NCBI RefSeq assembly: GCF_039602135.1
Contig: NZ_CP125942.1
Span: 3,472,001-3,536,000, forward strand
DNA from: Glutamicibacter sp. B1
Lineage (GTDB): Bacteria > Actinomycetota > Actinomycetes > Actinomycetales > Micrococcaceae
DNA length: 64,000 bases
Direction: 5' to 3'
Of this stretch, positions 21,702 to 49,105 are shown piece after piece. Position numbers and translations under genes: made by a program. The notes beneath the pieces are model-generated. The model was not told the DNA's origin, searched no databases, and saw only the letters and a program-made list of their open reading frames with translations. Numbering within the stretch: the first letter of the stretch is position 1; each line of letters starts with the position of its first letter.

Positions 21702-22586
21702 ATGGCAAAACTCTCCATGAACGTTACAACTAGTTTCTACGGAAACGTTGCAACTGACATCGCCACAGCAAAATCGGCTGGATTCGGCGGTATCGAATTA
21801 CAGAGTCCAAAGCTCTACCGTTACCTCGACGCTGGCTACTCGGTAAACACACTGCCCGATATGCTCGATGGTCTTGAAGTGACCGGGATTGGTGCCGTAC
21901 TCGATCTAGAACGCCAGGGCACTGCCCGCGAAGAGATGCTCCAAGAGGTCCAACGCATGGCTGAAATCGCTACAGTCGTTGGTGCACCCATTCTTCAAAT
22001 GTGCACCGGACCCGTGGACTGGAATGTAGTCAAGGACTTCAAAGCAGGAAAACTCACGGAATCCGATACTCGTTATCGCGGCACGCTCGGCCTCTCAGAG
22101 GCCGAAGCCATCAGCGTTGCAACCAATAACGTTTCTGCTGCGGCTAGCATCGCTGCCGACCATGGCTTAGAGATCTATTTGGAACCACTAGCCTGGTCCA
22201 ATATCAATCGGTGCCGACAAGCACTTGAAATTATCGAACGCTGCGGCCGAGACAATATTGGCATCGCCTTAGACACGTGGCATTTTTGGACCGTCGGCGA
22301 CACCTTGGAGGAAGTCGCTGCGCTGCCCAAGGAACTCATCAAGGCGGCACACATCTCTGACGGTTTGGATCTTGATCGTGAACATGAGGTTCCAACCCAG
22401 GATGTACATCGCAATGTTGTGATCGGGGGTGGCGCCATCCCTTTGCAGCAATGGGTGGACGCAATTAAGTCGACTGGCTATGACGGTTGGTGGGTTTCTG
22501 AAATGTTTTCCGACCGTGCCAATGAACACGATTTCCATAAGGTCGCCAGCACCATGCGCAACCTCCTAGACATCATGACTTCCTAA
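21702..22586 (+). CDS. Sugar phosphate isomerase/epimerase (TIM barrel)
   Basis: A 294-residue xylose-isomerase-like TIM barrel. Barrel strands carry the usual metal ligands: 'LEIYLEPLAW' (Glu), 'GIALDTWHFW' (Asp, His), 'KAAHISDG' (His) and 'GYDGWWVSEMF' (Glu). Relatives include inosose isomerase IolI, inosose dehydratase IolE and hydroxypyruvate isomerase. The start ATG at 21702 has GGGAGG just upstream. It is followed 29 bases later by an inositol dehydrogenase gene, so the pair probably oxidises an inositol isomer and then isomerises or dehydrates the ketone. An IolR-like operator precedes it. Confidence 0.85.
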   Translation: MAKLSMNVTTSFYGNVATDIATAKSAGFGGIELQSPKLYRYLDAGYSVNTLPDMLDGLEVTGIGAVLDLERQGTAREEMLQEVQRMAEIATVVGAPILQMCTGPVDWNVVKDFKAGKLTESDTRYRGTLGLSEAEAISVATNNVSAAASIAADHGLEIYLEPLAWSNINRCRQALEIIERCGRDNIGIALDTWHFWTVGDTLEEVAALPKELIKAAHISDGLDLDREHEVPTQDVHRNVVIGGGAIPLQQWVDAIKSTGYDGWWVSEMFSDRANEHDFHKVASTMRNLLDIMTS

Positions 22587-22615
22587 CTCCAATACCTTCT
22601 TTAAAGGATCTCTCC

Positions 22616-23617
22616 ATGCAAAGATTTGCCCTCATCGGCGCGGGTTTCATTGGCTCGGTACACGCACAGAACCTGGCCTCTCACCCCGACGTTGATTTCA
22701 AACTGATTTATGACATTGACCCACAGCGAGCCGCTGGACTGGCCTCACAACATGGGGCAAAAGCAGCGACCAGCCTAGATCAGATTTTCGACAACGACGA
22801 CCTTGATGCAGTTTTTATCGCCTCGTCCACAGATTCCCATGCGCAAAACCTCCGTTATGCAGCAGACGCGGGCCTAGCGGCTCTCGTTGAAAAGCCAATT
22901 GACTTGGACCTTGAAACAGCTAAGTCGACAGTGGCCTATGTTGAACGCGCAGGAATCAAGGCCATGGTCAATTTCAACCGTCGTTTCGATCGCGCCCACG
23001 CGGAGCTCAAGGATCTTGTGAGCTCGGGGGAAATCGGAGAACTCGCCTTACTTCAGTTAACTTCTCGTGGACCAGCCTTGCCACCCTTGGATTATCTGAA
23101 AACTTCTGGTGGACAGTTCCGGGACCAGGCAGTGCACTTTTTTGATTTGGCTCGTTGGATTTCAGGCCAAGACCCTGTCCGGGTGCATGCATTTGGTTCG
23201 GCACTGAGCGCGCCAGAAATTGCTGAATTTGGTGACGTCGACACTTCAATCTCCGCGCTGGCCTTCCCCAGTGGTGCACTTGCTCAAATTGATTGCGTTC
23301 GCCATACCAACTACGGCTATGACGAGCACATAGAAGTCCTCGGCTCTGATGCTATGGCCGAATCGGAACGGCAGCGTTCGGGTCACGTCAGCATATTGCG
23401 CGGGCAGGCAGCGCAGTCCCACGGCTTGCACAGCAACTGGTTCGACAGAGTGCAACCAACTTACGCTGCCAGCTTGGGAGCCTTTGTTCAGGCCCTTGAG
23501 GAAGACGGCGAAGTGCCGATTTCCCTTCGAGAAGGCCTTAAGTCTCAGGCTATCGCTCAGGCAGCCACACGTTCTATTTCTTCGGGACATAGCGAGATCG
23601 TTGACTACTCGCTCTGA
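22616..23617 (+). CDS. iolG: Inositol 2-dehydrogenase (Gfo/Idh family), copy A
   Basis: A 333-residue NAD-dependent dehydrogenase. The Rossmann motif 'ALIGAGFIGSVHAQNL' begins at residue 4, E-K-P is in 'LAALVEKPID', and the catalytic Asp-x3-His is in 'RDQAVHFFDLARW'. 'FNRRFDRAHAEL' is characteristic of IolG and scyllo-inositol dehydrogenases. It would oxidise myo-inositol or a stereoisomer to the inosose. It is encoded right after a TIM-barrel isomerase and ends at a strong terminator. One of five Gfo/Idh genes in the island; its exact stereoisomer preference cannot be read from sequence. Confidence 0.88.
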   Translation: MQRFALIGAGFIGSVHAQNLASHPDVDFKLIYDIDPQRAAGLASQHGAKAATSLDQIFDNDDLDAVFIASSTDSHAQNLRYAADAGLAALVEKPIDLDLETAKSTVAYVERAGIKAMVNFNRRFDRAHAELKDLVSSGEIGELALLQLTSRGPALPPLDYLKTSGGQFRDQAVHFFDLARWISGQDPVRVHAFGSALSAPEIAEFGDVDTSISALAFPSGALAQIDCVRHTNYGYDEHIEVLGSDAMAESERQRSGHVSILRGQAAQSHGLHSNWFDRVQPTYAASLGAFVQALEEDGEVPISLREGLKSQAIAQAATRSISSGHSEIVDYSL

Positions 23618-23690: not shown

Positions 23691-24584
23691 TTAGGCAGTT
23701 ACTTGTGGATTGACGCCGGCTTCTGCCTCAGCCAGCTCTTCATCATGTCCGCCAAGCTGTTCAAGCTCATGAGCCAGTTCGGCCAGTTCGGCCCCACCGG
23801 CCATCTGCGCGGTCAGTTCTTCTACGGTGATTTCCGACTTGGAATAGTACCCAATGGACCTACCGCGCTTGAGTAGCAGGAACGAGTCTCCCACCGGATA
23901 AGCGTGATGCGGGTTGTGCGTAATGAAGATGACGCCCAAACCACGATCTCGCGCCTGAAGGATGTAGCGAAGCACCACGCCGGATTGCTTGACGCCCAGG
24001 GCGGCCGTTGGTTCGTCAAGGATGAGGACCTTAGCGCCGAAATAAACGGCACGAGCAATAGCCACACATTGTCGCTCACCACCTGAAAGCTGCCCAATCG
24101 GTTGTTCCACGTCGCGTAGATCAATCCCCATGTCGGAGAGTTCCTGCTTGGTGATGTCCTTCATTTTCTGCACATCGAGCTTCTTGAACGGTCCCACGCC
24201 GCTGGTCAATTCCGAGCCGAGGAAGAAGTTGCGCCAGATGGGCATCAGTGGCACAACTGCCAGATCTTGGTAGACCGCGGCAATGCCAGCATCCAGGGCA
24301 ACTCGCGGACTCTTGAGTTTGATGGAGGAACCATGCAGTTTGAAGTCGCCTTCATCATGTTGGTGTAGCCCGGCAATGATTTTGATCAACGTTGACTTAC
24401 CGGCGCCGTTATCGCCGAGCACGCAGGTGACCTTTCCTGGATCAACCACCATGTCGACACCACGTAGAGCGATGATGCTGCCGTAGTGCTTGCCCACGCC
24501 TTTGAGCGTCAGCAGGTTATCGCTGGTCTTCGGCTCGAGCTTTCCCAACAGCTCTTCGGTCTTCTTGTTTTTACGAGTTTTCAT
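23691..24584 (-). CDS. Sugar/inositol ABC transporter ATP-binding protein
   Basis: A single-cassette ATPase of 297 residues with Walker A '[12 protein letters not shown]', signature '[18 protein letters not shown]', Walker B '[11 protein letters not shown]' and the H-loop '[13 protein letters not shown]'. It belongs to the class of short ATPases (FrcA, IatA-like) that serve ribose, fructose or inositol importers with a type 1 binding protein. Last gene of a three-gene minus-strand operon (binding protein, permease, ATPase), followed by a strong terminator. An acidic Glu-rich C-terminal tail is unusual but common in actinobacterial relatives. Inositol as substrate is inferred from the flanking iol genes. 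Confidence 0.88.
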
Positions 24585-24603
24585 GATTATTGTCCTTGGC
24601 TTC

Positions 24604-25668
24604 CTACTTGCTGGATTCCGCGCGTTTTTTCACCACGATGTTGACCACTGTGGCCAGCAACAGCATCAGGCCCAGGAAGAACTTGAACCAGTCCGGGTTC
24701 CATTCGGCATACACAATGCCCTTATTGGCCATCCCGAAGATAAAGGCACCGATAGCGCCGCCAATGGCTGAGCCGTAACCACCAGTGAGCAGACAACCAC
24801 CAATCACTGCGGCGATGATGTACAGGAATTCGTTACCAATGCCTTCACCGGACTGCACGGCGTCGAAGGCGAACAGGTTATGCATGCCCAGAACCCAACC
24901 ACAGAATCCGACAGCCATGAAAAGACCTATTTTGGTGCGAACCACTGGGACACCGACGGCACGAGCAGCCTTTTCATCGCCACCGATGGCGAAGATCCAG
25001 TTGCCCACTTTGGTGCGGAGCAAGATCCACGAGGCAATGATGACCATTGCTAGCCAGATAAAGACCGTCACCTTCACATCGATTCCAGCAATACTCACCG
25101 AAGAGGCAAAGATCGCCTTGGCACTTTGAAAACCTTCCATGTCGGCAATGGATGGTGAGGATACCGAACCACCAATGGCGCGGGTCAAACCGAGGTTCAA
25201 ACCGGTGAGCATCAAGAAACTGGCCAGAGTCACAATAAATGAAGGCAGCTTGGTCTTGATCAGAATGATCCCGTTGATGAATCCAATCAGCAAAGAAACC
25301 AGCAACGCCAAGACGACTCCGACCCAGACATTCAAGCCGAAATACCATGAGATCAGCGAGGCGCTCAGCGCGGACGAGATCACGGCGACACCGGTGGAAA
25401 GGTCGAATTCGCCTCCAATCATCAGTAGCGATACACCTACCGCCATGATTCCGATGGTTGATGCTCCGTATAGGACGGTGGCCAAGGAAGCAGGGGCCAA
25501 GAACACCGGAGCGACTATGGCGAAAAAGATGAATAGTGCCACGGCACCAACTAAGGCACCGATTTCAGGTCGTCCCAGCAGGATGGACAGCGTGCTCTTT
25601 TTACCGACCCGCTCATCCGGGGCCGCAGTAGTTTTCTTATGCGAGGGTGAAGCTGTTAGAGATGTCAT
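24604..25668 (-). CDS. Sugar/inositol ABC transporter permease
   Basis: A 354-residue permease with about ten hydrophobic segments and the signature '[24 protein letters not shown]', the class 2 sugar permease motif. It works with the ATPase 19 bases downstream and the binding protein upstream. I choose the ATG at 25668 because GGAGGAAAA lies just before it; the frame is open for 44 more codons upstream, but they are low-complexity and basic. Family members of this type in Caulobacter and Sinorhizobium (IatP, IbpA-linked) import inositol. Substrate inferred from context. Confidence 0.88.
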
Positions 25669-25741
25669 GAGTTTTCCTCCGTGTCCTTGCTGCGCGCCAG
25701 CAAATAAGCGAGTTTTGTAAGGCGCGCGTCGCGGGACGTGG

Positions 25742-26734
25742 CTAGCGGACGCCTTCTTCTGCGAAACTGGTGATCTTTTCTGCCACGGTCTTGTCAACAA
25801 TGGCCGGGCCGGTCAACGTTGCTTGTCCGCCACCGATGGTGAACCCACCCCGGTAGTTCTGCCACAGCGCGTCAACAGCCATGTACCCCTGCAACCAAGG
25901 TTGCTGGTCCACGGTGAACAGCACGTTACCCGCGGTAATCTCCTGAACCAGCTGAGAATTCATGTCGAATGATGCAATCTCAACATCTGAATTTGCGGTC
26001 GCCTTGGACTTGATCAGGGTCATCGTGATTGGGGCTCCCAGTCCGATGATGGCGTCGGCCTTCTTGTCCGCCTGTAGCTTGGCAGTTGTGGTGGACTCGA
26101 CTTGCGTCATGTCGGTGCCTTGCACATAGAGCACTTCGGTTCCGGGGACGACTTTTTTCACGCCGGCACAGCGCGCTTCAAGACCGACATGCCCCTGATC
26201 TTGAATGACGCAGATGGGATTAGAGATGCCAGCTTCCTTGAGTTTTTCGCCGGCGGCTTCGCCAGCGAGTTGCTCATCTGAGCCGAAGTGAGCGAAAGCT
26301 CCTAGGTCTTTGAAACGGTCTTCGCCAGCGTTGAGGCTAACGATGGGAATTCCTGCATCGGTGGCCTTTTTCAAGGCTCCCTTCATCGCATCTGGTTTGG
26401 CCAGAGTCACGGCTATACCGTCAACGCCCTGGTCAATAGCCTGCTCAATGAGTTGGGACTGACGTCCGCCTTCAGGATCTCCAAGATACTGAAGTTCCAC
26501 GTTGTCTTTGACCGCTGCTTCTTCGGCTCCTTTACGGACAATGTCCCAAAAGGTATCCCCCGGAGGTGCGTGGGTAATGACTGCAATCTTAATGCGGTCT
26601 GTCGTTGCCACAGTCCCGCCCGAATCCGCTTCAGCTACCGGTTGGCGTCCTCCCGTGGATGAACAGGCTGCCAAGCCCAGAGCGGGCACGATGGCGAGAG
26701 TTAGCGCGAGTTTGCGCCAAGTTGGCTTTCCCAT
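25742..26734 (-). CDS. Sugar/inositol-binding lipoprotein
   Basis: The substrate-binding part of the adjacent ABC importer, 330 residues. The signal peptide 'LALTLAIVPALGLAACSS' ends with a lipobox Cys at about residue 24. The body is a type 1 periplasmic-binding-protein fold ('KIAVITHAPPGDTFWDIVRKG', 'QAIDQGVDGIAVTLAKPDAM', 'FTVDQQPWLQGYMAVDAL'), close to ribose/inositol binders. An in-frame ATG with AAGGGG upstream fixes the start. A weak IolR-like sequence (26865-26878) lies about 130 bases upstream. Inositol is the favoured ligand by location only. Confidence 0.88.
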   Translation of the reverse strand: MGKPTWRKLALTLAIVPALGLAACSSTGGRQPVAEADSGGTVATTDRIKIAVITHAPPGDTFWDIVRKGAEEAAVKDNVELQYLGDPEGGRQSQLIEQAIDQGVDGIAVTLAKPDAMKGALKKATDAGIPIVSLNAGEDRFKDLGAFAHFGSDEQLAGEAAGEKLKEAGISNPICVIQDQGHVGLEARCAGVKKVVPGTEVLYVQGTDMTQVESTTTAKLQADKKADAIIGLGAPITMTLIKSKATANSDVEIASFDMNSQLVQEITAGNVLFTVDQQPWLQGYMAVDALWQNYRGGFTIGGGQATLTGPAIVDKTVAEKITSFAEEGVR

Positions 26735-26901: not shown

Positions 26902-27948
26902 TCATTCCACCAGAGTGGCGCCAACGGCTGACTCGCCTGGAAGTTGCGTATTCCCCGTGGATGATGAACGCACTACCAGGCGCGGCGAAATCGTCAGTTG
27001 ACGTGTGAATTTACCCTCCGGGCTGCGCACCAGCTGAAGCAGCAGGCGCGCGCTGCTGCGGCCAAGATCCTGGAAATCGGAATCAACGCTGGTCAAGGAA
27101 ATTCGTTTCAAAGATGACAAGGAAATATTGTCGTAGCCTGTCACCGCGGCGCTCGCCCCAGCCTCATCCAGGGCCTGGATTGCGCCAAAGGCGCACAAGT
27201 CGTTGAAACAGGCCAGCGCGTCGGGGCGCGCACCGGATGCCAGCAGTTGCGCCACCGCGTCGTAGCCAGCGTGAAGGCTTGGACCGGCCTCTACGACCCG
27301 CACGTGCTGGCGCAGCCCGTGCCGCTGCATGGCCCGGTGATAGGCAGCTTCACGCTGGGCGGATACCGGCCCCGGTCCCCCTGAAACGTGGGCTATCCGC
27401 TGGTGCCCGCCAGCAACCAGATGGTCCATGACCAAGCCAAAACCCTGCTCATCGTCTACGGATACCACAGCCGTGTTCGCTTGGAGCTCGCGCCCGCTGC
27501 CCACGAACACGGCCGGGGTCTCGCCGAATGCGGTTTCGAAGCTGGCGGTATCGTCAGCCGAGCCCAGCACCAGCAACCCGCTCACCCGCAGGTCCCGCAG
27601 CGCCTGCGGCTCGGCCGGTCCGATGCCCCGGCCGTCGTGAATGGCGGCGGCGCTGAACAGCACATCAAAACCGGCCGCCTGCAGCGCCTCGCGCGCCACC
27701 TCGGCAACCTCGAGCACCCAGGGATTGTGCAGTTCCCCCAAGACCACGCCAATGGCGTGGCGATTCTCGGCGACCAGGGATCGTGCCGCCAAATTGGGCT
27801 GGTAGCCGAGTTCACGGATCGAGTCCTCAACCCGTGAACGCCTCAGTGAGCTGACCTTGCTCGGGTCCGAGAGGACCAGGGACTTGGAGACCCCCGCATG
27901 CTTGGCGACATCACGGATCGTAGGGCGGCGGCTTGGCATCTGCGACAT
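26902..27948 (-). CDS. LacI-family regulator with a shortened HTH
   Basis: A 348-residue LacI-type protein with a normal sugar-binding core ('GVVLGELHNPWVLEV', 'GLLVLGSADD', 'AAVTGYDNISLSSL'). The DNA-binding domain is abnormal: after 'DVAKHAGVSKSLV' it goes straight to 'LSDPSKVSSLRRSRV', three residues shorter than the same stretch in the other three LacI proteins of this window. The pattern suggests loss of one copy of a repeated Ser-Leu-Val (9 bases, near 27873-27883). Since this is the recognition helix, operator binding is probably reduced or altered. It is the second gene after a Gfo/Idh dehydrogenase (20-base gap); a LacI-like operator (29227-29240) lies upstream of the pair. Confidence 0.85.
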   Translation of the reverse strand: MSQMPSRRPTIRDVAKHAGVSKSLVLSDPSKVSSLRRSRVEDSIRELGYQPNLAARSLVAENRHAIGVVLGELHNPWVLEVAEVAREALQAAGFDVLFSAAAIHDGRGIGPAEPQALRDLRVSGLLVLGSADDTASFETAFGETPAVFVGSGRELQANTAVVSVDDEQGFGLVMDHLVAGGHQRIAHVSGGPGPVSAQREAAYHRAMQRHGLRQHVRVVEAGPSLHAGYDAVAQLLASGARPDALACFNDLCAFGAIQALDEAGASAAVTGYDNISLSSLKRISLTSVDSDFQDLGRSSARLLLQLVRSPEGKFTRQLTISPRLVVRSSSTGNTQLPGESAVGATLVE

Positions 27949-27968: not shown

Positions 27969-29162
27969 TCAGCTCTGGACGGGCTGGCCCACAGACTGCC
28001 AGCCGCCGGTGGCCGCCGATATCTCCGCCGCCTCAACCAGGGCGGCGGCAGCCACGGCGTCGGCAATGGTGGAGTTGGACTTCTCCCCGCCGCACACGGC
28101 CACCAGGAACTTCTTCGCTTCAATGGTTTTCAAGTCGTCAAAGCCCATGGCGTTGCCAGGTCCGGGCTGGAAGCGGGAATATTCGCCATGCCTTGGCGAG
28201 CCGATGACGGTAGTGAAGCCCTGCTCCTCATTGTTGCGGCCCAGAACCACCTCCAGCTCATTCATGCGCTCGAAATCCCACTTGACCGATCCTTCGGTCC
28301 CGAAGATCTCCAACCGGTAGCCACACTGCGGCCCCACGGCAACACGGGAGGCCTCAATCGTCCCAATCGCCCGGTGGGCCGGGCCCTCGGGGCTGAAACG
28401 CACCAGCGCCGCAGCATAGTCCTCATTTTCAACCTCCCCCATTTCGCCGCCTTCGATCAAGTCGAAGTGCGTTCCCTGGCCCATCGACAATATAGGACGA
28501 GAGGGAATCATGACATTCGTAGACGCGGAAATTCCCCGGATGGATCCAACTACATGGCGGCACAGATCCGCAGCGTGGCTGAAGAGGTCCGCAAGCACGC
28601 CGCTGCCCGCCAGCTCCCGATTGAAGCGCCACGATAGGGCGGCCCGCGGATCGGCGGCATACCCGGCAAGGAAGCTGGCGCGGACGTTGGTGATGTCCCC
28701 TAACCGGCCCTCGCGCACCAGCTGGCGCGCTCGCTCGATGGCTGGGGCATGGCGGTAATTGAAGCCCACGGAAGTCTCCACCCCGTTGCGCGCCACGGCT
28801 TGTTCAATGGACTGCGTCTCGGCCAAGCTGCGTCCAGCTGGCTTTTCGATCCAGAAGTGCTTTCCAGCGTCCGCCGCAGCGATCGCCATCTCGGCGTGCA
28901 GGAAGTTCGGCGCGCAGATCGAGACCACGTCCACCTCCGGGTCCGCCAGCACCTCGTGGTAATCCAGAGTTCCACGCTCGAAGCCCAGCGTCTCCACGGC
29001 ATAGTCCACCCGCGACTGCTCGGTGTCCGCAGCCACAACCAATCGCGGCTTGAGGCCCAGTTCCGGGTAGACGTAGGGCACGGAACTGTAGGCCCGAGCA
29101 TGCAGCTTGCCCATCCAACCAACCGAAATCAACCCAACACCGATGGTGCGCTGTTCATTCAT
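27969..29162 (-). CDS. Gfo/Idh-family dehydrogenase (levoglucosan/inositol dehydrogenase-like)
   Basis: A 397-residue NAD(P)-dependent dehydrogenase, longer than IolG and closer in length and motifs to levoglucosan dehydrogenase and related sugar C3-dehydrogenases. Rossmann start 'GVGLISVGWMGKLHARAY', E-K-P in 'KHFWIEKPAG', then 'FNYRHAPAIERAR' and 'ALSWRFNRELAGSGVLADLFSHAADL' with the catalytic Asp/His region. The ATG at 29162 has GAGGAGAAGG upstream; a longer frame to 29240 runs through the operator and is rejected. It forms an operon with the LacI gene downstream. Substrate unknown: an anhydrosugar, glycoside or cyclitol. Confidence 0.83.
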   Translation of the reverse strand: MNEQRTIGVGLISVGWMGKLHARAYSSVPYVYPELGLKPRLVVAADTEQSRVDYAVETLGFERGTLDYHEVLADPEVDVVSICAPNFLHAEMAIAAADAGKHFWIEKPAGRSLAETQSIEQAVARNGVETSVGFNYRHAPAIERARQLVREGRLGDITNVRASFLAGYAADPRAALSWRFNRELAGSGVLADLFSHAADLCRHVVGSIRGISASTNVMIPSRPILSMGQGTHFDLIEGGEMGEVENEDYAAALVRFSPEGPAHRAIGTIEASRVAVGPQCGYRLEIFGTEGSVKWDFERMNELEVVLGRNNEEQGFTTVIGSPRHGEYSRFQPGPGNAMGFDDLKTIEAKKFLVAVCGGEKSNSTIADAVAAAALVEAAEISAATGGWQSVGQPVQS

Positions 29163-29226: not shown

Positions 29227-29240
29227 TTGGACCGTTCCAA
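29227..29240. promoter_or_regulatory. LacI-like operator before the dehydrogenase/LacI pair
   Basis: TTGGACCGTTCCAA is a near-palindrome (12 of 14 positions symmetric) 65 bases upstream of the dehydrogenase start. It resembles the TTGGAGCGCTCCAA core of the site at 46872. It is probably the target of the LacI protein encoded by the second gene. Confidence 0.55.
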
Positions 29241-29291
29241 AAAACCCTATGTTTCACCATGATCAATCGGCAACGGATTTGGGAGGGTTTC

Positions 29292-29303
29292 TTGTCAGGA
29301 CAA
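29292..29303 (-). promoter_or_regulatory. IolR-like operator in the divergent GntR/dehydrogenase region
   Basis: On the minus strand this reads TTGTCCTGACAA, an exact match to the central 12 bases of the shared motif. It lies between the minus-strand dehydrogenase (start 29162) and the plus-strand GntR gene. Confidence 0.7.
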
Positions 29304-29329
29304 TTGGACAAATGACGGATCTTGTCCAA
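29304..29329. repeat. Inverted repeat beside the IolR-like site
   Basis: TTGGACAA (29304-29311) and TTGTCCAA (29322-29329) form a perfect 8-bp inverted repeat with a 10-base spacer, directly adjoining the IolR-like site. The two halves contain TTGTCC, the left half of the IolR-like motif, so this may be an extended binding site. Confidence 0.5.
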
Positions 29330-29469
29330 ATTTCCTAGTCGAAGGCTGATTCTGGACCAAAGGCCAGCGAATGATTCGGGAGGCGATCTGCGCGAGCAGT
29401 CAGCGGAAAGGCCATGGATCGCACGGGTTTCCACAGGGGGATGCCCAAAGTGCCGATTTTCCGATATAG

Positions 29470-29483
29470 TTTGTCCTGTCAAA
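29470..29483 (+). promoter_or_regulatory. IolR-like operator before the GntR gene (autoregulation)
   Basis: TTTGTCCTGTCAAA differs from the palindromic consensus by one base and lies 39 bases before the GntR start codon, overlapping the probable promoter. Confidence 0.7.
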
Positions 29484-29521
29484 GCGACATATAACCTGAA
29501 GGTCGCTGGCAAGGAGCAACC

Positions 29522-30262: not shown

Positions 30263-30303
30263 CCTCGCGAAGCACCGGACACCGCCGTCGAAAGGAATGA
30301 CAC

Positions 30304-33152: not shown

Positions 33153-33163
33153 GGGAGTTCTCC

Positions 33164-33175: not shown

Positions 33176-33220
33176 TATTTGGTGTTCAGGAAAATCATGG
33201 CACACTGGAGAACACCTGTC

Positions 33221-33232: not shown

Positions 33233-33248
33233 GAAGAAAGTTTGGCCC

Positions 33249-39024: not shown

Positions 39025-39066
39025 GATATGTCCTTTCAAGAAATTTTTGGCTAGGTTCAGTCTTGC

Positions 39067-41573: not shown

Positions 41574-43520
41574 TTAGCCCAGTAGGGGCTTTTGACGTGC
41601 CTTGTGTTTGGTGTAGTTCTGGTAGGCCGTTTGGGTGCTTTCAAGCTCGGCGACTTCACTGACCGGAACATCCCACCACGACTCACTAGAGGGGGCATCG
41701 GCGTAAAGATCCGATTCGATGTGGATCAGGATCGGACCAGTTCCTTCCGGCGCGGCCTTGGCGGTGGCGATCGCCGCTGAAAGCTCGTTGATGGCCTCAG
41801 GTCCCGGGGTAATCCGGATGACCGTCACGCCCAGGGATTCGGCGTTGGTGGCCAGATCGATCGGTAGGGTTTCGCCCTCATCAAAACTGTGGTTTTGCGC
41901 ATCCAAGGTGCGATATTTGGTACCGAAACGCTGGGATCCGAGGGATTCGGACAGGGCACCGATGGAGGCGTAGCCATGGTTCTGGATCAGCACGGTGATC
42001 AGCTTCAGGCCTTCGGCCACTGCGGTGACAAGTTCGGTGTGCATCATCAGGTAGGAGCCGTCACCCACCATGACCACCACATCGCGGTGTTCTTGATCTC
42101 CGCGCGCAGCTTCATCGATGGCTGCACGCTTGATGCCTAGTCCACCAGCGATCTCGTAGCCCATGCAGGAGAAGCCGTATTCCACGTGGTAGCCGAATGG
42201 ATCGGCAACCCGCCACATTTTATGCAGGTCCCCGGGCAGCGAACCGGCGGCGCAGACCACGACGTCGCGCGGATCCATCGCCTGATTCACCGCACCGATA
42301 ATGGCGTTTTGGCTCACCAGCGGGGAAAGCCGTTCGGCGAAGGCCTCATCCACGGTGGCATCCCAACGCTGCTTTTCGCTGGCGGTTTGCACTTCCAGGG
42401 CTCCCTCAACGCGGTATCCGCTCAAGGCTTCACGCAGGGCAATCAATGCCTTGCGGGCATCGGCCACGACCGGGAGCACAGTACCGTGCTTGTAAGCGTC
42501 CAGCGCAGCGACGTTGATGTTCACGAACTTCACGTCGGGATTCTGGAAGGCGGTACGGCTGGCGGTGGTGAAGTCTTCATAGCGGGTTCCGATGCCGATG
42601 ATGAGATCGGCCTGCTCGGCCAAGGCATTAGCAGCAGTGGTGCCGGTGGAGCCAATTGCGCCCAGCGAGTACTTCGAGTCCCACGGAAGCACACCCACGC
42701 CGGCCTGGGTATTACCCACTGGGATGCCGGTGGCTTCACAGAAAGCTACAAGCTCGTCGGTGGCGAAGGCATAGAGCACGCCACCACCGGCGACGATCAG
42801 CGGTCGTTTGGCCGCGCGGATCATCTTCGCAGCTTCAGCGATATCCTGGGCTTCGGGCTCAGGGCGGCGAATCTTCCACTCACGTTCAGCGAAGAATTCT
42901 TCGGGGAAGTCGAAGGCTTCGGCCTGCACATCTTGGGGTAGCGAAATGGTCACCGCACCGGTTTCTGCTGGGTCGGTGAGCACACGCAAGCCGTGGTGCA
43001 GGGCGCTAGCCAACTGCTCAGGGCGGGTGACACGGTCAAAGTACTTGGACAGTGGGCGGAAGGCATCATTCACGGTGATGTCGTAACCGTGCGGCATTTC
43101 CAGTTGTTGCAGTACCGGGTCTGCTGCGCGGGTCGCGAAGGTATCGGAGGGCAGCAGCAAGACGGGAAGGCGGTTGGCCGTGGCCAGCGCGGCTCCGGTG
43201 AGCAGGTTGGAGGATCCTGGGCCGATAGACGTCGACACCGCATAGGTTGCCCGGCGACGAGTGTGACGCGCGTAGGCGACGGCCTGATGCGACTGGGCTT
43301 GTTCGTTACGGCCCTGATAGTACGGCATGAGACTGGGATCTTTGGCCTGCCACTGTTTTAGCGCCTGGCCCACGCCGGCAACATTGCCGTGCCCGAAAAT
43401 ACCGAACATGCCGGGGATCAGCCGTTCACGGTACTGGGTTCCAGCAACGGAATCCACCGTGTACTGGCGGCCCAGAAATTCCACAACCGCTTGGGCCACG
43501 GTCATCGTGCGTGTAGTCAT
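41574..43520 (-). CDS. iolD: 3D-(3,5/4)-trihydroxycyclohexane-1,2-dione hydrolase
   Basis: A thiamine-diphosphate enzyme of 648 residues that opens the inositol ring, giving 5-deoxy-glucuronate. The N-terminal pyrimidine domain contains 'FGIFGHGNVAGVGQAL' and 'YYQGRNEQAQSHQAVAYA', the central domain 'VAGGGVLYAFATDELVAFCE', and the C-terminal cofactor domain has the GDG motif 'VMVGDGSYLMMHTELVTAV' and 'IQNHGYASIGALSESLG', which are specific to IolD. It follows the Cgl0159-like aldolase by six bases and precedes iolA by 43. Confidence 0.95.
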   Translation of the reverse strand: MTTRTMTVAQAVVEFLGRQYTVDSVAGTQYRERLIPGMFGIFGHGNVAGVGQALKQWQAKDPSLMPYYQGRNEQAQSHQAVAYARHTRRRATYAVSTSIGPGSSNLLTGAALATANRLPVLLLPSDTFATRAADPVLQQLEMPHGYDITVNDAFRPLSKYFDRVTRPEQLASALHHGLRVLTDPAETGAVTISLPQDVQAEAFDFPEEFFAEREWKIRRPEPEAQDIAEAAKMIRAAKRPLIVAGGGVLYAFATDELVAFCEATGIPVGNTQAGVGVLPWDSKYSLGAIGSTGTTAANALAEQADLIIGIGTRYEDFTTASRTAFQNPDVKFVNINVAALDAYKHGTVLPVVADARKALIALREALSGYRVEGALEVQTASEKQRWDATVDEAFAERLSPLVSQNAIIGAVNQAMDPRDVVVCAAGSLPGDLHKMWRVADPFGYHVEYGFSCMGYEIAGGLGIKRAAIDEAARGDQEHRDVVVMVGDGSYLMMHTELVTAVAEGLKLITVLIQNHGYASIGALSESLGSQRFGTKYRTLDAQNHSFDEGETLPIDLATNAESLGVTVIRITPGPEAINELSAAIATAKAAPEGTGPILIHIESDLYADAPSSESWWDVPVSEVAELESTQTAYQNYTKHKARQKPLLG

Positions 43521-43526
43521 CGAGCT

Positions 43527-44465
43527 TTATCCTTCTGCGCTGCGTACAGGTGCGGTGGTGTTCAACAAAGAGGCGGCGGTGGCTACGGCGGCGGCCACGT
43601 CCCCGTCCTCGGGGTAGAGCAGGGTTCGACCCACGGTCAGCCCCTGCACCCCAGGCAAAGCGAGGGCTGCCTGCCAGGAAGCGAAGACCTCGTCCGGACT
43701 ACCTGCCGGGTCCCCACCCAGCAGAACCGTGGGCAAGGTAGTGGCTGCCATGACGCGTTCCATTTCCTGCACTACCGGGATCTTCAGCCAGGTGTAGGCG
43801 CTGGACTCGCCGAGTCCGGCAGCGATGCCCATGGACTTAATGACGGCGTCTGGGCGCAGGTCGTTGACAACCTTCCCATCGACTCGCTTGGAGATGAAGG
43901 GTTCAACCATGGCTACTAGTTGGTGCCGGGCTAGATCGGAGACCGCGTCGGCGGTGGCCTGCAGTGTTTTGACGGTGTCCTGGTCCTCGTAGCTGATTCG
44001 GGTGAGCATCTTTCCGCCGTCAGCGCCGAGTGCCGATAGTGCTGCGGCTGTATGCCCGGTGAAGCGGTCATCGATCTCGTTGACCAGGCCGGTCAGCCCA
44101 CCGCGGTTCATCGATCCGAAAACCAGTTTGCCTTCCAATGCCCCGAGCAGGAGCAGGTCATCGAGGATATCTGGCGAGGCGAGCACACCGTCGCAGGCCG
44201 GGTTGGCCAAGGCGATCTGCAGCCGGTCCAATAGTTGGCGGCGGTCGGCCATGGCGGTGGTCTGCTTGCCGACGGACAGGGCTCCACGGGCCGGGTGATC
44301 GGCAGCAATAATGAAGTTCTGGCGCCCTAATACCGGTCCGGCATGCTTTTGGCGGGTGGCCGCGGCACGTTGTACCGATGCCGGGTCTTCTAAGCGTTGA
44401 CGGGTAATGGATTCATAACGGCGTGGATCTTCGCGATCCACGCTTAGCTCGGTTACCTGTTGCAT
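43527..44465 (-). CDS. Cgl0159-family (beta/alpha)8 aldolase-like protein
   Basis: A 312-residue protein with a DeoC/FbaB-like aldolase barrel: 'NFIIAADHPARGAL', 'LVAMVEPFISKRVDG', 'DAVIKSMGIAAGLGESSAYTWLKIP' (candidate Schiff-base Lys in strand 6 or 7) and 'TVLLGGDPAGSPDEVFASW'. Related genes accompany iolC in Corynebacterium. In many Gram-negative bacteria a similar domain is fused to the C-terminus of IolC. Here it is a separate gene two bases after iolC. No class II IolJ aldolase is seen in the window, so this protein may cleave 2-deoxy-5-keto-gluconate 6-phosphate to dihydroxyacetone phosphate and malonate semialdehyde. That role is an inference. Confidence 0.78.
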   Translation of the reverse strand: MQQVTELSVDREDPRRYESITRQRLEDPASVQRAAATRQKHAGPVLGRQNFIIAADHPARGALSVGKQTTAMADRRQLLDRLQIALANPACDGVLASPDILDDLLLLGALEGKLVFGSMNRGGLTGLVNEIDDRFTGHTAAALSALGADGGKMLTRISYEDQDTVKTLQATADAVSDLARHQLVAMVEPFISKRVDGKVVNDLRPDAVIKSMGIAAGLGESSAYTWLKIPVVQEMERVMAATTLPTVLLGGDPAGSPDEVFASWQAALALPGVQGLTVGRTLLYPEDGDVAAAVATAASLLNTTAPVRSAEG

Positions 44466-44467: not shown

Positions 44468-45460
44468 CTAGACCAGGTCTTTCTGGGAGGTGGGGACGGT
44501 GCGGCCGCGCTGTGCCAACAGGTCATTGACTTCTTCGGGGGTCGGCATCGCATCGGAGCAGGCGACCTTGGAGGCAACGATGGCACCGGCAGCGTTGGCG
44601 TAATCCAATACCTGTTCCAGGGGCCAGCCGGAGAGTAGCCCGTGGCAGAAGGCTCCACCGAAGGAGTCCCCTGCGCCCAAACCATTGGCGGTCTGCACCG
44701 GAACCGGCGCGGAGACCACGCGTTCGGTACGGGTCTTGGCCATCACTCCTTCGGGACCTAGTTTGACGACGGCGATCTGCACTCCGGCGTCCAAGAGTCG
44801 GTCTGCTTGTTCGTCGGGGGTTCCTTCACCCACGGCGACGGTGCATTCGGTGTCGTTGCCAATGGCGACGGTGGCTGAGGCTAGGGCCGCGGTGACCTGT
44901 TCACGGGCCTGTTCTACCGAATCCCAAAACATCGGGCGGTAATCCAGGTCCAGGATCGTGAACTGGCCTTCGGTCAGTGAGCTGGTTGGGCGAGCGCCAT
45001 AGGCTGCCAGTTGTGCGCTGCGTGAAGGTTCACGGCTCAGACCGGTCACGGTGCTCCAGAAGATCTTGGCATTCTTCACTGCGTCAAGGTCAATGTCGCT
45101 GGTGTTGATGTTCCAGTCCGGTGCCATGGGGAAGCGACCGTAGAAGTAGAGCGGGAAGTCATCTGGTGGCAGGATCGCGCAGAAGGTGACCGGAGTCTGC
45201 AAATCGGCATCCCGGGTGACCTGCGAGCGATCCACGTTATAGCGGTCTAGTTCGCGTTCCAGGAAAGTGCCAAAATCATCGTCACCGACCTTGGTGATCA
45301 CTCCGGTTGCGCGCCCGTGACGGGCTGCTGCTACCGCGACGTTGGTGGCGGAACCGCCGAGGTACTTGCCGAAGGTGTTCACGTCGGCCAGGGATACGCC
45401 GATGTCGTTCGGGTAAACATCAACGCTGATGCGTCCGAGGGTGAGTACGTCGTATGTCAC
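44468..45460 (-). CDS. iolC: 5-dehydro-2-deoxygluconokinase (PfkB family)
   Basis: Phosphorylates 2-deoxy-5-keto-gluconate. A 330-residue ribokinase-fold protein: the N-terminal 'VDVYPNDIGVSLADVNTFGKYLGGSATNVAVAAAR' holds the di-Gly substrate motif, and the C-terminal 'TANGLGAGDSFGGAFCHGL' holds the catalytic Asp and anion hole. The start is a GTG with GAAAGGAC upstream. First gene of the eight-gene iol operon running to 36089. IolR-like sites at 45569 and 45678 lie in its promoter region. Confidence 0.93.
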   Translation of the reverse strand: MTYDVLTLGRISVDVYPNDIGVSLADVNTFGKYLGGSATNVAVAAARHGRATGVITKVGDDDFGTFLERELDRYNVDRSQVTRDADLQTPVTFCAILPPDDFPLYFYGRFPMAPDWNINTSDIDLDAVKNAKIFWSTVTGLSREPSRSAQLAAYGARPTSSLTEGQFTILDLDYRPMFWDSVEQAREQVTAALASATVAIGNDTECTVAVGEGTPDEQADRLLDAGVQIAVVKLGPEGVMAKTRTERVVSAPVPVQTANGLGAGDSFGGAFCHGLLSGWPLEQVLDYANAAGAIVASKVACSDAMPTPEEVNDLLAQRGRTVPTSQKDLV

Positions 45461-45568
45461 GCGGATCGACGTCCTTTCGAATCAGAAGTTCAGGGATCGG
45501 CTGGCTGCCGAGAATGTGAACGGTGCCACAGGAAATACTTTGCACCATGAAACATGCGCTGTCAAAGG

Positions 45569-45582
45569 TTTGTACTGACATA
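45569..45582 (+). promoter_or_regulatory. IolR-like operator before iolC (proximal)
   Basis: TTTGTACTGACATA lies about 110 bases upstream of the iolC start. Its first 12 bases are identical to the site at 21642. Confidence 0.7.
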
Positions 45583-45677
45583 TTTACAACATGAGTAACA
45601 CAATGGATGTAAATCCCCGAAAAATCAGGGTTTTCCATCGATACCTGACGCTAAAAATTAAGAAAATGTCTCAAGAC

Positions 45678-45691
45678 TATGTCCTGACTTT
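45678..45691 (+). promoter_or_regulatory. IolR-like operator before iolC (distal)
   Basis: TATGTCCTGACTTT keeps the core TGTCCTGAC but is weak in its right half. Together with the proximal site, 109 bases away, it could allow cooperative or looped repression. Confidence 0.55.
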
Positions 45692-45797
45692 ATGACTTGG
45701 TCAATGCAAATTTGTACAAGGAAACCACCCTAGACCTCGGCACGCACGCGTGAAACGCTAGGCTCTTTAAAAGACACCCAAACACCTTGGAGGAACC

Positions 45798-46805
45798 GTG
45801 GCCGCTGAACGCCGTCGAGCAACCATCTATGACGTTGCCCAGGCCGCCGGCGTTTCCAAATCACTGGTTTCCCTGGTGCTGCGCGACTCCCCCAGCGTCT
45901 CAGCCCCCCGTCGCGAAGCAGTCCTCGCGGCCATCAAGGAGTTGAACTACCGCCCCAGCCAGGCCGCGACAGCACTGGCCGGTGGGACCAGCCAAACCGT
46001 CGGCGTGGTCATCGACGACTACACGAACACCTGGTTTGTGGAACTGCTGCGCGGACTTCAAGAAGGTCTAGCCAGCGCAGGTTTGCGCATCGCGGTCTCC
46101 GACCGTTCACTCAATGCCCATATCGAATCCGATCCGCTAGACGGCTTCCTCAGCACACGAGTCGAAGCTTTGGTTTTGGCCACCGAGCCCACCCCAGCCA
46201 TGCGCTTCCCTTCACAGATCCCGGTCATTATCGCCGGCAATCGCGCCACCCAAATCCCCGGGGCAGATATCACTTGCAGCGATGACCGACTCGGCGCCCG
46301 ACGGGCCATCGAGCACTTGATCTCACTGGGACACCAACACATCGGCCATATCGCCGGTGGCGGCGGAGCCTCACGACTGCGCTTGAATGGATATAGGGAC
46401 GCACTGACGGCCGCCGGACTCAAAGAACACATCGTCTCAGTCAGCGAACTAACCACCGAAGATACCGGATACCAATGCACCCGACGCCTACTGAAGGACG
46501 CCGGGGAAATAACCGCCATTCTGGCCGGCAATGATTCCATGGCCATGGGAGCGATGGCCGCAGCCCAAGAGGCGGGACTGTCGGTACCTGAAGATCTTTC
46601 CATCATTGGGTACGACAACTCCCCACTCTCCGACACGCATTTACTGCATTTGACTACTGTAGATAGCCGCAACCATGAACTCGGGTTACATGTGGCCACA
46701 CAGGTACTCTCCCGGCTTGCCGATCCTGAGCGTGAAGCCCAGCGGGTGCAGTTAGAGCCATTGCTGATCGAGCGTGGCACCTGCGCAGCTGCGCGCAACG
46801 CCTGA
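45798..46805 (+). CDS. LacI-family regulator of the downstream dehydrogenase/isomerase pair
   Basis: A 335-residue repressor: HTH 'TIYDVAQAAGVSKSLVSLVL' (residues about 8-27), hinge 'AATALAGGTSQTVGVV', and a sugar-sensing core ('LVLATEPTPAMRFPSQIPVII', 'LGHQHIGHIAGGGGASRLRLN', 'SIIGYDNSPLSDTHL'). The start is a GTG preceded by TTGGAGGA. It is closely similar in its HTH to the 26902 protein but has the full-length recognition helix. A perfect palindrome at 46872, between it and the next gene, is the likely operator. Effector unknown. Confidence 0.9.
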   Translation: MAAERRRATIYDVAQAAGVSKSLVSLVLRDSPSVSAPRREAVLAAIKELNYRPSQAATALAGGTSQTVGVVIDDYTNTWFVELLRGLQEGLASAGLRIAVSDRSLNAHIESDPLDGFLSTRVEALVLATEPTPAMRFPSQIPVIIAGNRATQIPGADITCSDDRLGARRAIEHLISLGHQHIGHIAGGGGASRLRLNGYRDALTAAGLKEHIVSVSELTTEDTGYQCTRRLLKDAGEITAILAGNDSMAMGAMAAAQEAGLSVPEDLSIIGYDNSPLSDTHLLHLTTVDSRNHELGLHVATQVLSRLADPEREAQRVQLEPLLIERGTCAAARNA

Positions 46806-46871: not shown

Positions 46872-46889
46872 TTTTGGAGCGCTCCAAAA
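46872..46889. promoter_or_regulatory. LacI-type operator before the 46923 module
   Basis: TTTTGGAGCGCTCCAAAA is a perfect 18-bp palindrome with a GCGC centre, 33 bases before the dehydrogenase start codon. Confidence 0.85.
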
Positions 46890-46922: not shown

Positions 46923-48095
46923 GTGGCAAAAAGCATCGGCATCGCTGTCATTGGCGCCGGCATGGCCGGACTGTCTCACATCGCCGGATACCGCACGGCA
47001 CCCACCCTCTACGAACCAACATTGCCTAAGTTGCGGTACGTCGCGGTGGCAGACGTGAACACTGAACTCGCCGCTAAAGTGGCCCAACGATACGGGTATG
47101 AAAAAGCTTTGGGTTCATGGCAAGAAGTCGCAGCCGACCCCGACATCGACGTGGTTTCGGTGGTAATCGCCAACCGTTTCCACCGCGAGGCAGTGGAAGG
47201 TCTGCTGGCCGCTGGCAAGCACGTGCTGTGCGAAAAGCCGTTAGCTGACACCTTAGAAGAAGCAGAAGCGATGGCTGACGCCGCGCGCAATGCACAGTCC
47301 ATCGCCCGCGTCGGGTTCACCTTTAGGCGCACTCCGGGCATCGCCGCCATCCGGGATCTCATCACCGATGGAACCCTAGGCAAGGTCTTGCACTTCTCCG
47401 GTCGCTACTGGGCAGACTATGGACACAGCCCTGAAGCGCCAATGAGTTGGCGCTTCAAGGGCGAACCTGGCTCCGGGGCTTTGGCCGACGTTGGCAGCCA
47501 CCTAGCCTACATCGCCGAGTTCTTGGCCGGCGAGATCAGTTCAGTAAGCGGCGGACAGCTGCGCACCAGCATCACCGAACGCTACCTGCCTGCAGGTGCG
47601 GTAACCGGTCACAATCTCGTGGAACTGAGCGACCAATCGGAGCCAGTAGAAAATGATGACTACGCCGCCTTCAACGTGCAATTCCCTTCGGCGGCGGGCA
47701 GTTTGGAAGTCTCTCGTGTAGCTGCCGGTCACCCCAATACGCTGAATTTTGAAGTGTTCTGCGAAAACGGTGCCGCCCGCTTCAATCAGCTGCGACCAGC
47801 CGAAATCGAAATCATGCTCACCGAGGGACCTGAGATTACTAACGGCTATCGCACGGTGAATCTTGGCCCAGAACATGCCTACATCGGTGGCGGCTTGCCA
47901 ATGGACGCACCCGGTGTTGGTTTCGGACAGAACGATGCTTTTGGCTACCAGGCTCGAGCTTTCCTCGACGAGGTCACCGGTGTTCAAAGCACTTTGCCAA
48001 CCAACGCCACCTTCGACGACGGCGTACACAATATGAAAATCCTGCAAGCAGTAGTCCAGTCAGCAGCCAATGACGGAAAGAAGGTCTCACTATGA
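46923..48095 (+). CDS. Gfo/Idh-family dehydrogenase (levoglucosan dehydrogenase-like)
   Basis: A 390-residue NAD(P)-dependent dehydrogenase: 'GIAVIGAGMAGLSHIAGY', 'KHVLCEKPLADTLEEA' with E-K-P, 'FTFRRTPGIAAIRDL', 'MSWRFKGEPGSGALADVGSHLAYIAEF' with the catalytic Asp and His, and a long C-terminal part. Length and the MSWRF motif match the branch of levoglucosan dehydrogenase and sugar/glycoside C3-oxidising enzymes rather than short IolG proteins. The start is a GTG. It overlaps the downstream TIM-barrel gene by four bases, and a perfect LacI operator lies upstream. Substrate is probably a sugar, anhydrosugar, glycoside or inositol derivative. Confidence 0.85.
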   Translation: MAKSIGIAVIGAGMAGLSHIAGYRTAPTLYEPTLPKLRYVAVADVNTELAAKVAQRYGYEKALGSWQEVAADPDIDVVSVVIANRFHREAVEGLLAAGKHVLCEKPLADTLEEAEAMADAARNAQSIARVGFTFRRTPGIAAIRDLITDGTLGKVLHFSGRYWADYGHSPEAPMSWRFKGEPGSGALADVGSHLAYIAEFLAGEISSVSGGQLRTSITERYLPAGAVTGHNLVELSDQSEPVENDDYAAFNVQFPSAAGSLEVSRVAAGHPNTLNFEVFCENGAARFNQLRPAEIEIMLTEGPEITNGYRTVNLGPEHAYIGGGLPMDAPGVGFGQNDAFGYQARAFLDEVTGVQSTLPTNATFDDGVHNMKILQAVVQSAANDGKKVSL

Positions 48096-49105
48096 AACTC
48101 GGCGTCTACAACGCAATCCTCCACGACCGCCCCTTAGCCGAGGCGTTGAAGGTCATCGCGGATCTTGGGCTGACAGGCATTGAACTGAATACCGGCGGAT
48201 TCCTCCCACCGGCTCATGTGCCAAATATCGATCAGATCCTGCACAGCGACGCCGCCCGGGATGACTTCTTAGAAATTTTCGAGAACACCGGCGTTCAGAT
48301 TGCCGGGCTGAACTGCAACGGCAATCCCTTGCACCCCAATCCGATCATCGGCGAAAAGCACGCCGAGGACATTCGCCGTAGCATCAAGCTCGCACAGCGC
48401 TTGGGCCAACACCGCGTGGTGACCATGTCGGGACTGCCCGGCGGCGAACCGGGCGCCACGCGTGTGAACTGGGTAGTCAATGCATGGAACTCGGCAGCCT
48501 TAGAACAATTGGATTACCAGTACGACATCGCAGCCAGCTTCTGGAAAGAAATTGACGTTCTTGCACAAGAAAACGACGTTAAGGTTGCCCTGGAATTGCA
48601 CCCGCAAAACGTCGCTTTTAATCCGGCCAGTTTCCGCGAACTCATCGAGCGTGCAGGAACCAGCAACATCGGAGTTGAACTGGATGCTTCGCACCTGTTC
48701 TGGCAGCAAATGGATCCGGTAGCCGTAGTTAGGGACTTGGGTTCCTGGGTCTTCCATGCGGCAGCTAAGGACGTTCGCATTAACCCTCACGCAGCCATTC
48801 AAGGCGTGCTGGATAACAGCTTCCGCAGGTTACGCGCCGATGAGCATCGAACCAACCTCGGTGGAGATGAGTGGGCCAATGAGTGGCCCAAAAACTCGGC
48901 ATGGGATTTTGTGGCCTTGGGCAAGGGACATGACACTGCATTTTGGACCGAGTTCCTCAAAGCCCTGCACGAAGTGGATCCTGACATGCTGGTCAACATC
49001 GAGCACGAGGATACCGAGTTGGGTGCAGTTGAAGGTTTAGAAGTGGCCGCGAAAGTGTTGCTTGATGCCGACGCCGCGTTGACTTCCTCGCTGGCCAGAA
49101 ACTAG
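48092..49105 (+). CDS. Sugar phosphate isomerase/epimerase (TIM barrel)
   Basis: A 337-residue TIM barrel: 'IAGLNCNGNPLHPNP', 'VVTMSGLPGGEPGATRVNWV', 'VALELHPQNVAFNP' (Glu ligand), 'GVELDASHLFWQQMD' (Asp, His), 'HAAAKDVRIN' and 'VNIEHEDTEL' (Glu). It is homologous to the 36089 protein and resembles the isomerase/lyase partners of Gfo/Idh dehydrogenases in 3-keto-glycoside pathways. Coupled to the dehydrogenase by an ATGA overlap, it probably acts on that enzyme's keto product. It ends at a strong terminator. Confidence 0.85.
   Translation: MKLGVYNAILHDRPLAEALKVIADLGLTGIELNTGGFLPPAHVPNIDQILHSDAARDDFLEIFENTGVQIAGLNCNGNPLHPNPIIGEKHAEDIRRSIKLAQRLGQHRVVTMSGLPGGEPGATRVNWVVNAWNSAALEQLDYQYDIAASFWKEIDVLAQENDVKVALELHPQNVAFNPASFRELIERAGTSNIGVELDASHLFWQQMDPVAVVRDLGSWVFHAAAKDVRINPHAAIQGVLDNSFRRLRADEHRTNLGGDEWANEWPKNSAWDFVALGKGHDTAFWTEFLKALHEVDPDMLVNIEHEDTELGAVEGLEVAAKVLLDADAALTSSLARN

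Follow-up and report, generated by a model that had tools for sequence, protein, structure and literature searches.

Why should a bacterium surround a single inositol pathway with several further dehydrogenases and isomerases? The question is raised by an island of about 30 kb in Glutamicibacter sp. B1, lying within the 64 kb stretch of DNA that was analysed (hereafter the window; positions 3,472,001–3,536,000 of a single 3.60 Mb contig, with coordinates counted from its first letter). The island is bordered on the left by arabinose and galactose genes and on the right by xanthine permease and uricase genes. Next to the iol genes it holds four small satellite units: modules A (A_tim21 and A_dh22), B (B_dh27 with a LacI gene), C (C_tim31 and C_dh32 with a LacI gene) and D (D_dh46 and D_tim48 with a LacI gene). 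An initial annotation had counted five Gfo/Idh dehydrogenases and six TIM-barrel proteins in 27 kb, and profile matches confirmed the counts and strands: the Gfo/Idh genes lie at 22616, 27969, 32061, 38011 and 46923, and the AP_endonuc_2 TIM barrels at 21702, 31273, 36089, 37119, 39067 (IolE) and 48092. All of the satellite units that it named are present on the strands it gave, together with an ABC importer (23691–26734), two major facilitator superfamily (MFS) porters (19718 and 34310) and three LacI genes (26902, 33249 and 45798). Genome-wide there are 12 PF01408 places (E ≤ 0.001), five of which fall within 27.4 kb of the 3.6 Mb (P of about 2e-8 under a uniform model).

We consider it fairly probable that this is a strain-variable inositol island in which a classical iol trunk under a GntR-type IolR is accompanied by cyclitol entry modules. 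The trunk would run IolG–IolE–IolD–IolB–IolC–aldolase–IolA, and the modules would convert other cyclitols to inososes, which would then enter the common IolE and IolD steps; a different cyclitol for each module is a plausible prediction. The computed basis consists of gene families, conserved units, co-occurrence with IolD and operator sharing. From it we infer the substrates and reactions of modules A–D, and the binding of all regulators.

The inositol trunk and its predicted IolR sites

The minus-strand operon reads, in order, iolC (44468–45460; TIGR04382, 359 bits, cut-off 300), a Cgl0159-type gene for a putative aldolase (IolJ; 43527–44465; PF22649, 397 bits), iolD (41574–43520; TIGR04377, 835 bits, cut-off 715), iolA, encoding a CoA-acylating methylmalonate semialdehyde dehydrogenase (40016–41530; TIGR01722, 715 bits, cut-off 448.5), iolE (39067–39987; TIGR04379, 131 bits, cut-off 290), iolG (38011–39039; NF052679, 303 bits, cut-off 540; catalytic triad kept), tim37 (37119–38003) and tim36 (36089–37054). 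Eight minus-strand genes are thus present, as the initial annotation had it for its eight-gene iol operon, but iolB (30304–31206, plus strand; PF04962, 278 bits) is located outside, paired (29522–31206) with the gene of a GntR-UTRA regulator (29522–30262, plus strand; PF00392 and PF07702) that adjoins iolB in relatives and is our IolR candidate. The pathway is classical in its content, with IolD, IolC and IolA above curated cut-offs and with IolB, IolE, IolG and the putative aldolase; IolE and IolG score below their cut-offs, yet are located in the operon. A single IolD match was found in the source genome. Finally, tim37 occupies what we take to be the IolH position; by eye it seems to be without three of the four Glu-Asp-His-Glu metal ligands (presumably the pattern of the family), although relatives retain it in their core operon.

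In Corynebacterium glutamicum the IolR regulon comprises 22 genes, and an IolR operator is located in the iolT1 promoter (PMC6475665, PMC5948850). A regulon of this type is predicted here from the GntR-type gene and a common putative operator before transporter, trunk and regulator genes. In the window, IolR-like sites lie on the B_dh27 side (29290–29305, minus strand), before gntR–iolB (29469–29484, plus strand), at 36008–36023 (plus strand; TTTTGTCCTGACAAAA) upstream of mfs34 (34310–35854, minus strand; PF00083), the gene of an MFS sugar porter and IolT candidate, and in the divergent promoter region of iolC and the module D lacI gene (45461–45797; TTTGTACTGACATA). Five window sites are within three mismatches of the 16-base form, compared with 0.31 expected. 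The 14-base consensus TTTGTCCTGACAAA was trimmed from the 36008 site, so that the window match of mfs34 is by construction. Scoring covered the roughly 260 bases that precede the genes concerned in 32 sequences (the window, L129–L157, L001 and L002), with first-order Markov shuffles (mean 8.0–8.8) as the control and at least 11 of 14 letters taken as a site. We assume that such sites fit the published C. glutamicum IolR motif, the letters of which we did not find in the literature searched.

Sites were found before gntR in 13 of 14 loci, iolC in 11 of 12, the module D lacI gene in 10 of 12, the importer gene sbp in nine of 12, B_dh27 in six of eight, D_dh46 in nine of 14 and mfs34 in seven of 14. 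Lower counts were obtained for D_tim48 (4/17), iolE (3/15), iolG (1/17) and abcP (1/7), and none for tim36 (three loci), iolD (15), iolA (16) or iolB (17). These counts are not independent: divergent genes share sites, L129–L132, L001 and L002 are of the same genus as the window, and L140 and L141 overlap. In the window, L129 and L131, iolC and the module D lacI gene have a common promoter region. IolR-like sites accompany module B and, in most relatives from outside the genus, also module D. All three of the examined D loci that are not near iolD (L136, L149 and L152) carry IolR-like sites, and the two B_dh27 loci without one (L145 and L155) both have an IolD2 gene of their own (see below).

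A second operator type connects modules B and D. LacI-type operators precede B_dh27 (TTGGACCGTTCCAA, 29227–29240) and D_dh46 (TTTTGGAGCGCTCCAAAA, 46872–46889), and these are the only two places genome-wide with an exact TTGGANCGNTCCAA; at one mismatch there are 13 places, compared with eight for the reversed pattern. Before D_dh46, TTTGGAGCGCTCCA is found in four of the 12 relative loci listed (L129, L131, L152 and L156). Because of this shared operator type and their two enzymes of the levoglucosan dehydrogenase (LGDH)/scyllo-inositol dehydrogenase (scyllo-IDH) type, B and D may be two halves of one system.

Co-occurrence with IolD and variability of the island

We searched a fixed set of 129 family genomes (E limits of 1e-100 for IolD, 1e-60 for D_tim48, 1e-90 for D_dh46, 1e-80 for C_dh32 and 1e-110 for B_dh27), 44 of which have IolD. 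It is present in 22 of 22 genomes with D_tim48 (hypergeometric P of 6e-13), in 20 of 20 with D_dh46, all of which also have D_tim48 (1e-11), in 19 of 19 with C_dh32 (5e-11) and in six of six with B_dh27 (1e-3). Counted by genus (32 genera, 15 with IolD), D_tim48 is found in 12 IolD genera (P of 2e-6) and C_dh32 in eight (6e-4), and in a class sample of 256 genomes all six with D_tim48 (1e-90) have an IolD-type gene, compared with 101 of the 256 overall (P of 0.003). The uricase control also deviates (35 of 73 IolD-positive; P of 1e-4), so part of the signal reflects genome size or phylogeny. iolD is within 35 kb of D_tim48 in 16 of 22 genomes and of C_dh32 in 14 of 19; it is far away on the same contig in G020 and G072 (D) and in G063 (C), and on a different contig in the others. 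For D, C and B, co-occurrence therefore supports the earlier proposal that the modules feed a shared trunk, and B and D have IolR-like sites and the shared operator in addition; for module A there is no such support: A_tim21 is present in two of the 129 genomes (1e-60; both IolD-positive and within the genus), and no IolR-like site precedes it in the two loci scored.

The island is strain-variable. IolD is present in three of seven members of the genus sample and absent from four, and in 20 kb from each of the IolD-negative genomes G112, G127 and G023 the uricase and xanthine permease genes are present and the island genes absent; in G112, genes of an arabinose-type LacI and a kinase come next, some 3 kb past that of the permease. 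MYb229 (L003) is without module A and the MFS gene at 19718–21193, and MYb214 (L004) is without this MFS gene. The GC content is 0.62–0.67 in B, gntR–iolB, C, MFS 34310, tim36 and the core, and 0.53–0.58 in A, the ABC genes and D, with flanks at 0.55–0.57. No tRNA genes were found in the 64 kb window, and tRNA-borne integration of the island was rejected on this ground. Elsewhere in the source genome a second cluster (L081, 40000–59900) holds three Gfo/Idh places at 46–55 kb and LacI-like genes.

The satellites had been described as repeating one idea, but they are not copies of a single unit: the dehydrogenases are just 23–35% identical (best BLASTP segments), and the closest TIM-barrel pair within the island set, the paralogues tim36 and D_tim48, is 35% identical. 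Tandem duplication is ruled out by these values, and from the low mutual identity the modules appear to have been assembled, not copied from each other. The sole close copies in the set are the two MFS genes (83% identical by BLASTP). Since the one at 19718–21193 borders the arabinose operon (AraA at 14382, FGGY kinase at 16652), its link to inositol is uncertain; the other sits with the inositol genes.

What the modules may do

Module D comprises a LacI regulator (45798–46805; LacI-family NCBIfam matches), D_dh46 (46923–48095; NF052479, 275.5 bits, cut-off 650) and D_tim48 (48092–49105), all on the plus strand. The closest fold to D_tim48 is that of the 2-hydroxy-3-keto-glucal hydratase AtHYD (PDB entry 8ro4; 21% identity), with IolI in the fifth row of the Foldseek search, and a plain IolI orthologue was rejected on this basis. 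Named relatives among the 120 listed of its 4585 homologues are called only ‘sugar phosphate isomerase’ or similar (alignment A1 holds 15 of these homologues, six fetched loci and two window proteins). D_dh46 and D_tim48 start at most 2.4 kb apart in 14 of 20 genomes and 11–35 kb apart in the other six, and D_tim48 adjoins iolC in seven of 22 genomes (one copy, in L104, being partial).

Unit B is without a TIM barrel and consists, on the minus strand, of a LacI regulator (26902–27948; PF00356) and B_dh27 (27969–29162; NF052479, 299.3 bits, cut-off 650), the best PDB matches of which include 6a3f and 5ya8. The dehydrogenases of modules A, B and D have their catalytic residues; B_dh27 and D_dh46 retain the Lys, Asp and His of the Paracoccus-type scyllo-IDH, but in our alignment its swap-loop His318 is replaced by Asn in B_dh27 and by a residue other than His in D_dh46. 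The neighbouring minus-strand importer comprises an ATPase (23691–24584; PF00005), a permease (24604–25800; PF02653) and a substrate-binding protein (SBP; 25742–26734) that is distantly similar to rhizopine SBPs; with 177 bits it stays below the cut-off of 420 (NF052284) that rhizopine (moc) catabolism would call for, and a rhizopine importer was rejected. The ATPase has one ABC domain (297 residues), compared with the models of about 500 positions of the best-matching sugar importers.

We propose that B, D and probably the ABC importer would form one system for a modified inositol, with two dehydrogenases, two LacI regulators and one hydratase-like TIM barrel. A dehydrogenase of B or D would make a ring ketone, which D_tim48 would isomerize, or eliminate and re-hydrate, to an inosose. 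A more specific version, which we regard as tentative and rather improbable, would have the cyclitol ring itself as the site of an oxidative de-etherification or de-glycosylation. Judging from its fold, D_tim48 may strip inositol ethers or glycosides of their O-substituents: D_dh46 or B_dh27 would oxidize a ring hydroxyl two carbons from the O-methyl or O-glycosyl group, D_tim48 would eliminate ROH and re-hydrate the enone, and the product would already be an inosose, taken directly by IolE with no need for a reductase. If so, pinitol-, ononitol- or galactinol-like compounds would gain access to the iol trunk with neither a hydrolase nor a demethylase. A ROK glucokinase-like gene (51269–52231) is near D_tim48 in at least six of 22 genomes (G000, G075, G095, G074, G126 and G122; a lower bound, since for several others the flank available was about 1.5 kb), and might handle any sugar that module D releases.

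The nearest named relatives of B_dh27 are from Arthrobacter sp. S41, NIO-1057, MYb229 and MYb214 (90–93% identical). At the named loci of the best 80 of 302 relatives, IolD2 occurs together with an HpcH/HpaI aldolase at 62, a 2-hydroxyacid dehydrogenase at 62, ALDH2 at 60, IolE2 at 59 and the importer SBP (at least 40% identity) at 26. Since 62 of 80 loci carry this pair and the source genome has one IolD, module B and the importer resemble the opening part of an IolD2 cassette, here joined to the classical trunk with IolR-like sites. The recurring order is aldehyde dehydrogenase (ALDH), IolD2, HpcH/HpaI aldolase, B_dh27, 2-hydroxyacid dehydrogenase, in some cases IolG2 and a short-chain dehydrogenase/reductase, and IolE2 (L016:5491–16014; L005, L013, L155, L036, L042 and others). 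Within at most 10 kb on each side, an IolC or Cgl0159-type gene is present at one of the 62 loci and IolB at 10; an IolA 68–70% identical lies downstream in 21 of 26 loci (L005–L030). Going by this gene content, the cassette could be a non-phosphorylative inositol route in which 5-deoxyglucuronate is oxidized twice and then cleaved by a retro-aldol reaction; the products could be hydroxypyruvate and malonate semialdehyde, with IolA as a possible user of the latter. Nothing on such a route was found in the open-access literature searched. The cassette genomes examined (G037, G118 and G274) each also hold another IolD-type gene. At class level, a search for IolD2 without IolC gave only G274 with a close IolD2 relative (68%), together with an IolD-type gene (41%) and IolC; some small genomes in the class sample (for example G152, G189, G218 and G345) have an IolD-type match and no IolC match. 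L042 and L046, titled as a Bifidobacterium breve metagenome-assembled genome (MAG), resemble the Nanopelagicales MAG L041 in arrangement, and the titles may be wrong.

Module A, on the plus strand, consists of A_tim21 (21702–22586; PF01261; the open reading frame opens at 21468 and 21501–22586 was analysed), a candidate IolI-type inosose isomerase, and A_dh22 (22616–23617; TIGR04380, 312.8 bits, cut-off 355), of the myo/D-chiro-inositol dehydrogenase type. The best PDB matches of A_dh22 are 4hkt and 3euw, and it keeps the Lys/Asp/His triad and the YGY of motif V that define group i inositol dehydrogenases (IDHs; PMC9603128). The pair would oxidize and isomerize myo- or D-chiro-inositol.

Module C is a pair, predicted to be LacI-controlled, that would oxidize and isomerize another cyclitol: C_tim31 (31273–32064, minus strand; TIGR03234, 117 bits, cut-off 353), which is hydroxypyruvate-isomerase-like, C_dh32 (32061–33152, minus strand; TIGR04380, 299 bits, cut-off 355) and a divergent LacI gene (33249–34250, plus strand; LacI-family NCBIfam matches). 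In all 19 loci C_dh32 has C_tim31 beside it, and in 18 of the 19 the LacI gene as well. C_dh32 falls outside group i: YGY is kept in 19 of 19, but Glu replaces the catalytic Asp in all of them. No IolR-like site was found before C_dh32 (14 loci), its lacI gene (13) or C_tim31 (15). Module C instead keeps its own predicted LacI operator, TAGAACGTTCTA, with two copies at 33163–33176 and 33220–33233 and four matches in the window compared with 0.25 expected; 10–12 of its 12 letters are kept in 14 of 14 loci, a count made without a shuffle control in the relatives. Cg0212 and Cg2312, which we take to be C. glutamicum inosose isomerases although we did not find this in the literature searched, were not used for module C.

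Competing explanations and known systems

Several points weigh against a trunk served by entry modules. The P values are inflated by relatedness and by linked genes being transferred together, and the uricase control also deviates; in four of the six D_tim48 genomes without a nearby iolD the two genes are on different draft contigs, which give no distance between them. The nine of 14 sites before D_dh46 include a weak window match (11 letters, at the start codon) and the overlapping L140 and L141, and in L129 and L131, relatives from the genus, the score there is no more than 8; D_tim48 stands at 4/17, and the 3/15 of iolE shows the background level. At two mismatches the B/D operator is unexceptional in the window (five found, 1.94 expected, a number reached by five of 100 shuffles). 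D_tim48 is nearest in fold to a glycoside-pathway hydratase, and module A is too rare to be tested by co-occurrence. Lastly, the Glu of C_dh32 is shared by C. glutamicum IdhA3, which gave growth on none of three inositols (PMC9603128); Gk1899 with Glu is reported to be active.

The explanation that best survives beside the one we favour is ordinary redundancy as in C. glutamicum, with use limited to the three common inositol isomers, which is possible but on balance unlikely. Four of the seven C. glutamicum IDHs jointly cover three isomers (PMC9603128), A_dh22 has YGY and the full triad, A_tim21 is closest to IolI, and the B and D dehydrogenases are related to a scyllo-IDH; against redundancy stand the fold of D_tim48, to which a hydratase comes nearer than IolI does, the LacI regulators that B and D have of their own, their shared operator type and the absence of His318 from both. 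Very unlikely is a breakdown to glucose, by B and D, of levoglucosan or some other simple 3-keto-glycoside, with the two modules as mere neighbours of the inositol genes. Both dehydrogenases have the LGDH model as their best NCBIfam match, AtHYD and the ROK gene stand close to D_tim48 in structure and on the chromosome, respectively, and 3-oxidation has been suggested for an IolG homologue in Arthrobacter sulfoquinovose clusters (PMC8873060). However, both dehydrogenases score less than half of the NF052479 cut-off, IolR-like sites precede B and D genes, and IolD accompanies D in 22 of 22 genomes although glucose formation needs no IolD (co-occurrence not being equal to need), so that levoglucosan is disfavoured as their main substrate; an LgdC-type reductase was not searched for, and as another Gfo/Idh protein of the island could serve, this argues neither way. 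Least likely of all is an accretion of unrelated sugar modules at a variable locus flanked by arabinose and purine genes, which the four IolD-negative genus members, the variable module A and MFS 19718, the position of this MFS gene at the arabinose operon and the GC differences between blocks would allow, but which is opposed by the operators shared between units and by an IolD co-occurrence that extends to genomes with no iolD within 35 kb on the contig of D (6/22) or C (5/19); for module A by itself it may be true.

Isomers, ethers and glycosides of inositol are common in plants and soils, and the co-occurrence of D and C with IolD, together with the shared B/D operators, argues directly for trying cyclitols before other substrates on such pairs. 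Parts of the island resemble systems that are already described. Bacillus subtilis IolI is the best PDB sequence match of A_tim21 (1i60), and the same chemistry is proposed for module A, although this protein-sequence match is of 40 bits only. The Paracoccus scyllo-inositol/L-glucose dehydrogenase (5ya8; PMC5969746) belongs to the subfamily of B_dh27 and D_dh46, which share its Lys, Asp and His but not its swap-loop His318. Bacillus smithii LgdA–LgdB1–LgdB2–LgdC (PMC7676230), compared by description and not by sequence, likewise combines a Gfo/Idh dehydrogenase of a related subfamily with a protein of about 36 kDa annotated as an isomerase, in a logic of oxidation, elimination and hydration; the island differs in dehydrogenases far below the LGDH cut-off, in its co-occurrence with IolD and in its IolR-like sites. 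Unlike the HYD of the Agrobacterium GlycDH–OGE–HYD route (PMC10628242), to which it is 21% identical, D_tim48 is found with inositol genes.

The closest system as a whole is iol1/iol2 of C. glutamicum, with its seven annotated IDHs (PMC9603128), which has a classical trunk, a GntR-type IolR, several Gfo/Idh proteins and secondary inositol transporters. Compared by description and not by genome, the island differs in that its extra enzymes are grouped in small units, of which three have a LacI of their own, and in its ABC importer. Since such multi-dehydrogenase inositol systems are known, the undescribed poly-cyclitol design put forward in the initial annotation is not new as a general idea; what stands is that modules A–D are unnamed in the open-access literature searched. 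C_dh32 may help to explain IdhA3, which has the same Glu and is given as of unknown function in PMC9603128. Although the kind of system is already known, module D with B is the part worth testing: if D removes O-substituents, it would provide a new way into a textbook pathway.

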